A stretch of 64,000 bases of DNA from Marinomonas rhizomae (GTDB taxonomy: Bacteria > Pseudomonadota > Gammaproteobacteria > Pseudomonadales > Marinomonadaceae): assembly GCF_024397855.1 (NCBI RefSeq), contig NZ_CP073343.1:1798001-1862000 (forward strand), read 5' to 3'. A model generated the notes under the pieces. It did no database searches. It had not been told where the DNA came from and saw only the letters and a program-made list of their open reading frames with translations. Within the stretch, counting starts at the first letter, position 1, and each line of letters opens with the position of its first letter. Made by a program: the position numbers and the translations under genes. Positions 32,002 to 35,180 of this stretch are shown piece by piece.

Positions 32002-32214
32002 CTAAGCTGGTTCAGTTTCACTGAGCTGCTCGCTTTTCGATTGCTGTAATTTTTCGGCTTGAATGCGTTTGTATATTTCTTCCCTGTGAACGCTTACTTT
32101 CTGTGGCGCTTTGATGCCAATGCGCACCTGCGTGCCTTGTATTCCTAATACCGTGACTTCCATATCATCACCGATATTAATCGTTTCACCTGGGTGTCGA
32201 GTTATGACTAGCAT
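32002..32214 (-). CDS. csrA: CsrA-family translational regulator
   Basis: 70 aa. It begins [17 protein letters not shown] and contains [22 protein letters not shown], with the RNA-contacting Arg of the VHREEI element. The tail (about 50-70) is charged and slightly longer than in E. coli CsrA. The protein binds GGA motifs in mRNA leaders. The changed opening (LVITRH rather than LILTRR) allows that it is a second CsrA-type copy in this genome. Confidence 0.92.
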
Positions 32215-32346: not shown

Positions 32347-32997
32347 TTAGAACATTATTCGGGCTTGGGTCACAACCCCTACGACCTCTAGATCATTAGC
32401 CACTTCAATAGGCCTGTAGTTTGAATTTAGTGGTGTTAGGTAAGTGCGACCTGCGTCTACAACAAATTTTTTAAAGGTTACGTCTTTGCTGTCTGCTAAT
32501 TTCGCAACGATCAAATCACCACTATTTGCCGTTAAGGCAGGTTCAACAAGAATAAAATACCCTTCTGGGACACTAATGCCAGACGATGACATCATGTTAT
32601 CGCCAATCACTTTTAGCCAAAATGCCGTTGCAGATACCGTATCTGGTACTTCTAGGTGTTTTAGCTCTAAAGATTCTAACTCGCCTATGTTTGGCCATTG
32701 TGCAGCTTGTTGGGCTGTGATGATGGGTCTTAGGTTATTTTTAAAGGGCTGTGAGGCTTGATCATCATTGATGTAGTGAGAGGTGTTTTCTCTTACTTCA
32801 TTTGTTGTGCCCAGTAACAGCCACTCTGCGTCGCAATCAAGCGCTTTGGCTAAATTGAGTAGCTTTCGCGGGTTTTGTGTTCTGCCATCTTCGATTTTTT
32901 GCAAAGACTGCTGTGAAATGCCAACGCGCTTGGCTAGCTCTGATTGAGTTAGTCTAAGGTCGGTTCGTTTTTGTTTAACGCGTTCTGAGATGCTCAT
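32347..32997 (-). CDS. XRE/S24 CI-like repressor with the catalytic Ser replaced by Asn
   Basis: 216 aa from ATG 32997 (MSISERVKQK); the frame extends to 33033 without a better start. An XRE helix-turn-helix (about 1-62) contains LTQSELAKRVGISQQSLQKIEDG. The C-terminal S24 domain (about 120-216) aligns with lambda CI, but the GNSM serine site reads GDNM (codon AAC), while the lysine of TFKKF is kept. The Ala-Gly cleavage dipeptide is not evident in the hinge. Self-cleavage is therefore not expected. Divergent from the YdaS-like gene. Confidence 0.88.
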   Translation of the reverse strand: MSISERVKQKRTDLRLTQSELAKRVGISQQSLQKIEDGRTQNPRKLLNLAKALDCDAEWLLLGTTNEVRENTSHYINDDQASQPFKNNLRPIITAQQAAQWPNIGELESLELKHLEVPDTVSATAFWLKVIGDNMMSSSGISVPEGYFILVEPALTANSGDLIVAKLADSKDVTFKKFVVDAGRTYLTPLNSNYRPIEVANDLEVVGVVTQARIMF

Positions 32998-33020
32998 AAG
33001 GTGAATAATTACAACTTTAT

Positions 33021-33059
33021 CTGTATTTGACAAACAATAAAAGCTGTTATCAAATACAG
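33021..33059. promoter_or_regulatory. Divergent operator with an SOS (LexA) box
   Basis: A dyad CTGTATTTGA (33021-33030) / TCAAATACAG (33050-33059) spans the centre of the 84-bp gap between the repressor and the YdaS-like gene. Inside it, CTGTTATCAAATACAG (33044-33059) fits CTGT-N8-ACAG, the LexA box. TTGACA at 33027-33032 is a possible -35 for the rightward promoter. Both autoregulation and LexA control are likely. Confidence 0.7.
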
Positions 33060-33081
33060 TAAAGGTTGTTAAGGAGGTTAT

Positions 33082-33297
33082 ATGTCAGCCATTGCAAAAG
33101 CAGTCGAAATTGTAGGAAGCCAAACTGCACTCGCGCACATCTTAGGAGTTAAGCAAGCTCACGTTTGGAACTGGTTACACATTCATAAACGTTCGCCAGC
33201 AAAATACATACGGCGAATTTCTTTGGCGACAAATGGACAAGTTAGTGAAAGTGAATTGCTTAAGGACCATGAACCTGACGTTTGTCGTGGTAGTTAA
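33082..33297 (+). CDS. YdaS/Cro-like DNA-binding protein
   Basis: 71 aa. The opening AIAKAVEIVGSQTALAHILGVKQAHVWNWL is a helix-turn-helix of the YdaS/Cro type, followed by RSPAKYIRRISLATNGQVS. In phages this partner antagonises the CI repressor. An AAGGAGG ribosome-binding site precedes the ATG. There are no other phage genes around, so it is a stand-alone switch. Confidence 0.82.
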   Translation: MSAIAKAVEIVGSQTALAHILGVKQAHVWNWLHIHKRSPAKYIRRISLATNGQVSESELLKDHEPDVCRGS

Positions 33298-33348
33298 TTT
33301 CTCATCTTTACAAAAATAGGCTAGTTTATTCGCATGCTTTAAAACATA

Positions 33349-33364
33349 CTGTACGAATATACAG
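33349..33364 (+). promoter_or_regulatory. SOS (LexA) box ahead of the UmuD-like gene
   Basis: CTGTACGAATATACAG has the CTGT-N8-ACAG form of gammaproteobacterial LexA sites. Its right end is only 15 bp from the ATG at 33380, so the transcript leader must be short or the start further upstream. Confidence 0.75.
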
Positions 33365-33379
33365 TTTGGATGTTTGTTT

Positions 33380-33832
33380 ATGCGCGTTTCTTATCTTGGT
33401 ACCTCCGAGTCTGCTGCTTTCATTGCGGCGAATAGTGTTCGAATTCCCCTTTATTCTGAATCTATGGCAATTTCTGATCTTAATGGACAGTCAGAAGAGA
33501 AGCCTGTGGATTTAAATACCTTGTGTATTCCTAACCCAGGGGCGACTTTTTTTGTGCGTGCTCAAGGTGAGTCTATGGTCAAGGAAGGCATTCATGCCGG
33601 TGATGTGCTGGTGGTGAACCGATCCTTGGCTGCGCGACATGGTGATATTGTGATTGCGTTTGAGCGTGGGAAAATGGCCGTAATGACGTTGCAATTGAAG
33701 CCCGATGTCTTGCTTCGCCCTAAGAATAAAGCGTATGCGGCGACCGTCACGCCCGTTGTAGAAAGTGAAGCGCCAAGCTTGGAAGTGTTTGGTGTTGTCA
33801 CCAGTGTTGTGCGTCAACTAGAGCGCGGTTGA
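33380..33832 (+). CDS. UmuD-like S24 protein with the catalytic Lys replaced by Met
   Basis: 150 aa from ATG 33380 (a TTG at 33374 would add two). It aligns with E. coli UmuD: FFVRAQGESMVKEGIHAGD keeps the serine, and DIVIAFERGKMAVMTLQLKP aligns with [20 protein letters not shown], so the position of Lys97 is Met (codon ATG). The Cys-Gly cleavage site before the S24 domain is also not visible. No umuC follows; the next gene is on the other strand. Possibly a regulatory or inert UmuD-type protein. Confidence 0.88.
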   Translation: MRVSYLGTSESAAFIAANSVRIPLYSESMAISDLNGQSEEKPVDLNTLCIPNPGATFFVRAQGESMVKEGIHAGDVLVVNRSLAARHGDIVIAFERGKMAVMTLQLKPDVLLRPKNKAYAATVTPVVESEAPSLEVFGVVTSVVRQLERG

Positions 33833-33943: not shown

Positions 33944-34159
33944 TCACCCGTCACTCGGTTGTTCTCCCGGTGGTATTTGGGCTTTCTCGTTGCTTTGACT
34001 TTCTAGGTCTTGCTTGCCAGCCAAAGGGCGGATTTGTCCGTTGTCGCGGTAGAAACCAATGTCTTTTAAGTAATGGTCATCAAGCTGACGAAACAGCTGA
34101 TTGGTGCGACGAGCTTCGAAGTATTCTTTAGCGGCGTTGAATAGGGCGATGATACTCAT
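33944..34159 (-). CDS. DUF1127 (YjiS-like) small protein
   Basis: 71 aa. RRTNQLFRQLDDHYLKDIGFYRD is the DUF1127 core, in which an Arg-rich helix precedes DIG. Some family members bind RNA and affect small-RNA or phosphate regulation. The C-terminal tail is polar. ATG preceded by GGAG. The leader contains a stable hairpin. Confidence 0.85.
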   Translation of the reverse strand: MSIIALFNAAKEYFEARRTNQLFRQLDDHYLKDIGFYRDNGQIRPLAGKQDLESQSNEKAQIPPGEQPSDG

Positions 34160-34625: not shown

Positions 34626-35180
34626 ATGGCAACGAAAGCAACAATTTATAAAGCATCGGTTCAAGTGTCCGATATGGATCGAAACCACTACCAAAGTTAT
34701 GAATTGACCTTGGCATTACACCCTTCTGAAACCGAAGAGCGCATGATGGTGCGTTTGGCGGCGTTTGCCTTGTTGGCTGATGAGAAAGAAGGTGGAGAGC
34801 AATTGAGTTTCAGTAAAGGTATTAGCACTGAAGACGAGCCAGATCTTTGGCAGAAAAATTACTCAGACGAAATTTTGCTTTGGATCGAGTTAGGTCAGCC
34901 AGACGAGAAGCGTTTGCGCAAAGCCTGTGGTCGCGCTCAAAACGTCGTTGTAGTGAATTACAACGATAAGTCTGATATTTGGTGGGAACAAAACAAAGGC
35001 AAGAACAGCCGTTTTGATAACATGCGAGTATTGCGTTTCCCAGAAGCTCAAGTTGAAGCATTAGCGAAGATCTGTACTCGCTCTATGCAATTGAATGTCA
35101 CCATTCAAGACAGCGAAATGTGGATTTCTGGTGAGCTAGGCGAATGCCAGATGACACCTATGTGGCGAGGCGAGCAATAA
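34626..35180 (+). CDS. yaeQ: YaeQ family protein
   Basis: 184 aa. Family features are present throughout: ATIYKASVQVSDMDRNHY, LALHPSETEERMMVRL, EDEPDLWQKNYSDEILLWIELGQPDEKRLRKA and MWISGELGECQMTP. YaeQ has a PD-(D/E)XK-like nuclease fold; its cellular role is not settled. Confidence 0.95.
   Translation: MATKATIYKASVQVSDMDRNHYQSYELTLALHPSETEERMMVRLAAFALLADEKEGGEQLSFSKGISTEDEPDLWQKNYSDEILLWIELGQPDEKRLRKACGRAQNVVVVNYNDKSDIWWEQNKGKNSRFDNMRVLRFPEAQVEALAKICTRSMQLNVTIQDSEMWISGELGECQMTPMWRGEQ

Follow-up and report, generated by a model that had tools for sequence, protein, structure and literature searches.

A UmuD-like protein predicted to be uncleavable and a CI/YdaS repressor pair are separable neighbours in Marinomonas

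The window, i.e., the whole stretch of 64,000 nucleotides analysed here, covers positions 1798001–1862000 of a one-contig genome of 4.37 Mb. Based on open reading frames (ORFs) and profile searches, the locus under study carries, in this order, csrA (−), a CI-like repressor gene (−), a YdaS/Cro-like gene (+), a UmuD-like gene (+), a small DUF1127-like gene (−) and yaeQ (+) (Table 1). The first-pass annotation had described the CI-like and UmuD-like genes as neighbours separated by a YdaS/Cro-like gene, which the PF15943 match to the latter (80.3 bits) confirms. The small gene gave no Pfam or NCBIfam match, and we take it to be DUF1127-like by eye. A prophage remnant was considered for CI/YdaS; no phage genes were seen around the two genes when the surrounding ORFs were inspected by eye. 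In the genome records, the named relatives come from Marinomonas at 23 of 24 loci, and the remaining one, 34% identical, from a Bacteroidales MAG.

Table 1. Genes and sequence features of the locus (positions within the window).
Feature	Position	Strand	Basis
csrA, left neighbour	32002..32214	−	PF02599 (Pfam) and PRK01712 (NCBIfam), both over cut-off
CI-like repressor, 216 aa, HTH and S24 domains, predicted uncleavable	32347..32997	−	PF01381 48.5 bits, PF00717 62.9 bits
Retained dyad Lys codon of CI-like (TFKKF)	32470..32472	−	sequence
Asn codon replacing catalytic Ser of CI-like (GDNM)	32596..32598	−	sequence; shared with L014 of G006
Ala-Ala of CI-like replacing scissile Ala-Gly	32701..32706	−	alignment with second CI of the genome (QAGAW)
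Operator-like motif O1, ACA-N8-TGT	33011..33024	+	motif search
Operator-like motif O2, ACA-N8-TGT	33034..33047	+	motif search
First CTGT-N8-ACAG site, right half of O2 plus left half of O3	33044..33059	+	13.7 bits
Operator-like motif O3, ACA-N8-TGT	33056..33069	+	motif search
YdaS/Cro-like gene	33082..33297	+	PF15943 80.3 bits; P22_Cro 19.7 bits, below cut-off
Putative LexA box of UmuD-like gene	33349..33364	+	22.5 bits, top site of the window
UmuD-like gene, 150 aa, without adjoining umuC, predicted uncleavable	33380..33832	+	PF00717 54.9 bits; PRK10276 99.6 bits (cut-off 110)
UmuD-like loop, residues 28–42, place of Ala-Gly in Pol V UmuDs, none here	33461..33505	+	alignment; pN/pS
Retained Ser codon of UmuD-like (GESM)	33572..33574	+	sequence
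Met codon of UmuD-like replacing catalytic Lys (AVMTL)	33683..33685	+	sequence
Small DUF1127-like gene, right neighbour	33944..34159	−	ORF; conserved at locus
yaeQ, anchor of the locus survey	34626..35180	+	PF07152 250.1 bits

By sequence and by fold, the best PDB matches of the UmuD-like protein are UmuD chains (E. coli UmuD 8gmt_B, E 1.6e-24), and UmuD' heads the Foldseek matches of its AlphaFold model, which is weak (mean pLDDT 66.7) and in which the N-terminal arm cannot be placed. The protein carries an S24 domain (PF00717) and stays below the curated cut-offs for both UmuD (PRK10276) and HumD (NF051876, 54.9 vs 120 bits); its gene forms no operon with umuC. As had been read earlier, it retains the Ser of the Ser-Lys dyad, with Met in place of the Lys. 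A point beyond that reading is that, in our alignments, the scissile Ala-Gly is gone from both this protein and the CI-like repressor. The cleavage loop of the UmuD-like protein is shorter by two residues and contains no Ala-Gly, while the two UmuC-adjoining UmuDs of the genome read SAGFPSP. All 12 UmuD-like copies found at yaeQ loci lack a scissile Ala-Gly or Cys-Gly, and the Lys is replaced by Met or Val throughout the 9-member clade of the window copy, L048 excepted. Sequencing error as the source of the Asn and Met codons was rejected, since the Asn recurs in the CI of G006 and the Met in several relatives. With the residues for known self-cleavage missing, the protein is predicted to be a naturally uncleavable UmuD, a variant without several defining features of the autoproteolytic subunit which, we infer, works like full-length UmuD.

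The CI-like repressor also reads as first described, with Asn for Ser and the Lys kept. It possesses the HTH and S24 domains of autocleaving CI/LexA proteins, but neither Ala-Gly nor a complete dyad: the site reads QAAQW vs QAGAW in the second CI of the genome, which keeps Ala-Gly. With Ala-Ala in place of Ala-Gly, the protein probably cannot cleave itself. Among 20 aligned locus orthologs (the alignment left out the locus copy of G032), Ala-Gly is present in none, Ser in 18 and Lys in all 20. Only 10 of 48 database homologues (P0121–P0168) combine Ala-Gly, Ser and Lys, and Ser is lost in nine of the 38 without Ala-Gly (Asn in two, Cys in one, Gly in two, His in three, Thr in one); as judged from these sequences, the Asn of the window is thus one of several sporadic Ser losses within a family that has no cut site. 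All 48 homologues retain the dyad Lys, which possibly has a structural role. Both domains are constrained (pN/pS 0.17 for the HTH and 0.25 for S24, 11 orthologs).

The HTH of the CI-like protein is closest to the 434 repressor (E 5.6e-15) and 434 Cro chains; an AlphaFold model of the CI-like protein has a mean pLDDT of 79.3. Operators of phage 434 have the form ACA-N8-TGT, and we found three such motifs, at spacings of 23 and 22 bases, within 81 bases before YdaS (0 of 5000 shuffles); the three are kept in 19/20 locus orthologs. The divergent CI and Cro-like genes, the repeated operators between them and a 434-like DNA-binding domain with predicted binding liken the locus to the 434 CI/Cro switch. 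It differs in that a YdaS-type protein takes the place of Cro, the CI lacks Ala-Gly and Ser, and the locus is chromosomal, with no phage genes recognized by eye. CI and YdaS would repress each other via the three operators, without a RecA-triggered release. A search for a wider CI regulon with a 20-mer operator arm returned only its two own exact sites, and five further matches had three mismatches each, as many as the reversed control. Gifsy prophage repressors of the GfoR/GtgR type are likewise unable to self-cleave; yet they are short and without the cleavage motif, whereas the CI-like protein keeps its S24 domain (PMC3121763). In G032 (L213) and G010 (L214), csrA-like, CI and YdaS genes also occur together elsewhere in the genome, and these CIs keep Ala-Gly.

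According to the first-pass annotation, both forward promoters carry a CTGT-N8-ACAG box. Both sites exist, but they are unequal (22.5 vs 13.7 bits). The scores come from a matrix built on 11 sites in this genome (recA, lexA, dinB, umuDC, ruvC, uvrA, topB, yebG, intI and a further promoter with two sites). RecA and the Y-family polymerases were identified by family search, and LexA was read by eye as the top S24 match; the remaining names (ruvC, uvrA, topB, yebG, intI) are presumed, being assigned by eye. Of the bare motif, two were found vs 0.67 expected, 14 of 100 shuffles reach two, and genome-wide its number is near chance (51 sites vs 46 for the reversed control). The box of the UmuD-like gene falls within the leave-one-out range of the reference sites (15.8–29.3 bits) and has no equal in one simulated 4.37 Mb genome, whereas the CI/YdaS box lies under all 11 reference SOS sites and has 10 equals there; the idea of two equal LexA boxes was accordingly dropped. 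A box of 22.5–24.0 bits precedes 9 of the 12 UmuD-like orthologs and is not found before L048, L150 and L151 (150 bases upstream scanned). LexA would therefore be expected to repress the UmuD-like gene, and DNA damage to induce it. The CI/YdaS box may bind LexA in some species, because its score varies (−1.5 to 20.7 across 18 locus orthologs) and the exact CTGT-N8-ACAG occurs in 11/20. LexA control of YdaS is nevertheless doubtful, as the site is made of the halves of two operator-like motifs; a caution to draw from this is that two adjoining phage-type operators can mimic a LexA box where they meet. Of the LexA-controlled, non-cleavable switch suggested earlier, the absence of self-cleavage residues from both proteins and the strong box of the UmuD-like gene hold, but control of YdaS by LexA is doubtful. 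Elsewhere in the same genome (L226, around 2580493), an integrase-like gene, of integron type by eye, has an SOS-type box upstream.

We surveyed the yaeQ locus in 46 congeners and detected CI in 21 and the UmuD-like gene in 12; both are present in 8, CI without the UmuD-like gene in 13, the UmuD-like gene without CI in 4 and neither in 21. The survey reached 1.5 kb upstream of yaeQ at many loci, so a divergent copy farther off could be missed. This distribution does not agree with a coordinated loss of opposite dyad halves, as had been proposed, and we rejected that idea: the genes are separable and both scissile bonds are gone. Nor does a mutually regulating pair fit G006, the closest relative, whose CI bears the same Asn with no UmuD-like gene at the locus. 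That the two proteins complement or regulate each other, with coordinated losses, draws on their adjacency in 8 genomes and on the finding of no terminator between YdaS and the UmuD-like gene, but 17 of the 25 genomes with either gene have a single one of them at the locus, the Asn persists in G006 and Ser loss in CI is sporadic. A complemented dyad would also have no usual bond to cut, as neither protein has a scissile Ala-Gly. We regard such a partnership as highly improbable, and the loss of Ser in CI and the loss in the UmuD-like protein are likely unrelated. In G006 (L152, 2678–7387), a gene of dehydrogenase type together with a proVWX-like cluster (names by eye) separates YdaS from the DUF1127-like gene, where the UmuD-like gene would be; a proX-like gene also precedes umuDC in the genome of the window (L002), so a rearrangement is possible.

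A UmuD-family search across 48 genomes of the genus yielded 89 matches (E of 1e-25 or lower), spread over 46 genomes. All 89 were scored, and five fragments shorter than 100 aa were left out of the residue count. Ala-Gly, Ser and Lys are kept in 65/65 UmuDs with a UmuC sequence directly downstream, although UmuC itself looks broken beside a few of them, e.g., G047:C11 and G035:C33. In turn, 15/19 UmuDs without adjoining UmuC lack at least an intact Ala-Gly, and 4/19 are intact (Fisher p 2.6e-13 for element loss vs UmuC adjacency, relatedness ignored). In the UmuD tree, which is built on few columns and whose bootstrap is not settled, the 12 yaeQ-locus copies form one clade (96/78; 95/87 with L059 included) and L126 and L129 are placed elsewhere, which suggests that loss of the cut site arose at least three times in the genus. 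The dyad is still present in L048, L059, L126 and L129, so the cut site would have been lost first there. Three of these, L126 (G033), L129 (G007) and L059 (G001), are UmuC-less UmuDs without intact Ala-Gly in which Ser and Lys are retained and the LexA box scores 19–28 bits. An element is missing from 33 of the best 120 database homologues (133 in all), fragments P0070 and P0076 included, and five are intact with N-terminal extensions (P0019, P0023, P0027, P0039 and P0046). Among the matches listed, all element-lacking homologues with an organism name come from Marinomonas, save the fragment P0070 (Maribrevibacterium).

Ten of the 12 carriers of the UmuD-like gene have a further UmuD-family gene and nine have UmuC, which is absent from G024, G025 and G031 (Fisher p 0.09 for UmuD-like presence vs UmuC absence, relatedness ignored). 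In G024 and G031, which still keep the gene, nothing else matches the UmuD family at E 1e-25; the protein of G031 is identical to that of the UmuC-bearing G030. The copies of G005 and G012 are strongly diverged and without a LexA box, although UmuC is present. The copy of G025 ends early, and the reading frame is open in 12/12.

Within the 9-member window clade, dN/dS ranges from 0.03 to 0.22 (33 of 36 pairs computable, dS above 1 in many), which indicates purifying selection, and the median of 13 Pol V umuD genes is 0.036. Regional pN/pS was compared between 8 window-clade members and 11 Pol V UmuDs, the regions being short and the sequences related. In the UmuD-like protein, the N-terminal arm varies least (pN/pS 0.09, 74% invariant, vs 0.22 and 48% in Pol V UmuD) and the cleavage loop most (0.73 vs 0.05), with the body at 0.20 vs 0.10; in Pol V UmuD, arm and loop stand in the opposite order. 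A constant arm with a drifting loop is the pattern that a UmuD needing its arm, but not the cut, would show. In two UmuC-less genomes, the UmuD-like gene has a non-synonymous branch 2.2–4.5 times (G025) and 1.7–2.2 times (G024) as long as its comparison branch, and the control branches give 1.3–2.4 times for CI (G025 only) and 0.9–1.7 times for dinB; the contrast concerns two lineages, and in G025 the CI control overlaps.

We tentatively read the locus as two separable neighbours, i.e., a CI/YdaS repressor pair and a likely SOS-induced, uncleavable UmuD holding back Pol V, and we rate this reading at somewhat less than an even chance. LexA would repress the UmuD-like gene, and the protein, once induced by DNA damage, would pair with cleavable UmuD from the two umuDC operons of the genome. 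In a mixed dimer, the UmuD-like arm would have no cleavable bond, and the UmuD-like active site would be unable to cut the partner arm, so that the dimer would stay full-length and non-mutagenic; the retained arm might also help to bring UmuD' to ClpXP. According to one source, full-length UmuD2 prevents UmuC- or DinB-dependent mutagenesis and the uncleavable UmuD S60A lowers UV mutagenesis (PMC3901139). Another states that UmuDD' heterodimers form preferentially, that the ClpX signal sits in the UmuD arm and that the arm is cleavable in trans (PMC5342242). A brake on Pol V is further supported by the faster change of the UmuD-like protein in the UmuC-less G025 and G024. Against it stand the retention of the gene in the UmuC-less G024, G025 and G031, the divergence of the G005 and G012 copies despite UmuC, the presence of the gene in only 12/46 congeners with yaeQ, the single Y-family match of 5/48 genomes of the genus, the four intact UmuC-less UmuDs and the missing box of L048. 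A broader proposal, namely a dedicated locked SOS UmuD in Marinomonas that traps Pol V (or DinB) in mixed dimers and that lost its cut site first and its dyad later, seems possible to us, with the chances nearer to one in three than to even.

The main role of the protein might instead be to manage DinB (Pol IV), its locked form limiting frameshifting throughout the SOS response. DinB occurs in 12/12 carriers, the three UmuC-less ones included, dinB has a LexA-type box of more than 13 bits in all of them, and full-length UmuD2 is reported to bind DinB and to reduce −1 frameshifts (PMC3901139). The co-occurrence of DinB says little, since DinB is near-universal in the genus (47/48 genomes by score class), and the UmuD-like protein changes faster in two genomes with DinB but no UmuC, G024 and G025; we think the idea unlikely. 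No more probable to us is a slowly decaying relic, in which umuC was lost, then cut site and dyad, and the old SOS promoter remains. The confinement of function loss to UmuC-less copies (15/19 vs 0/65), the patchy presence, the early end of the G025 copy and the divergence of those of G005 and G012 are in line with decay, but dN/dS is not near 1, the frame is open in every carrier, the arm is more constant than that of Pol V UmuD and the LexA box is kept in 9/12. An improbable role, to a greater degree, is that of a decoy which binds activated RecA without being consumed and slows the cleavage of LexA, CI or UmuD. A solved structure (8gmt) shows UmuD on the RecA filament, and since that chain has Ala at the catalytic Lys, a dead UmuD can bind there; the arm of our model, however, is of low confidence.

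Returning to the locked UmuD, its closest relatives are the Pol V UmuDs (E. coli and the two UmuC-adjoining copies of the genome), with which it shares fold, sequence, the N-terminal arm and a LexA box just before the start; it differs in lacking Ala-Gly, the catalytic Lys and an adjoining umuC, and in scoring under the curated cut-off. HumD of phage P1, which we take to be UmuD'-like from the outset, is a UmuD relative without need for processing as well, but it represents the processed form, while the UmuD-like protein keeps its arm and falls far below the HumD cut-off. UmuDAb of Acinetobacter is another UmuD relative turned to other use, with umuC reduced in A. baylyi; it is a repressor that binds DNA and has a 5' extension, which the UmuD-like gene does not have. 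We found no natural uncleavable UmuD family among the matches listed from the open-licence literature, where absence is not proof, and no publication on UmuD in Marinomonas in that literature. Uncleavable UmuD is known as a laboratory mutant, S60A (PMC3901139). Natural counterparts appear to exist, the cut site having been lost more than once in one genus, mostly alongside a cleavable form. If the protein does restrain Pol V or DinB, bacteria can tune SOS mutagenesis by carrying the manager protein in two copies, and what full-length UmuD does in its own right becomes testable in a natural setting; a locked UmuD would then be nature's converse of HumD, with a brake on SOS mutagenesis built into the genome. 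The genome of the window also carries, around 1896501 (L011), a third umuC of 426 aa without umuD ahead, whose upstream CTGT-N8-ACAG letters equal those of the umuDC box.
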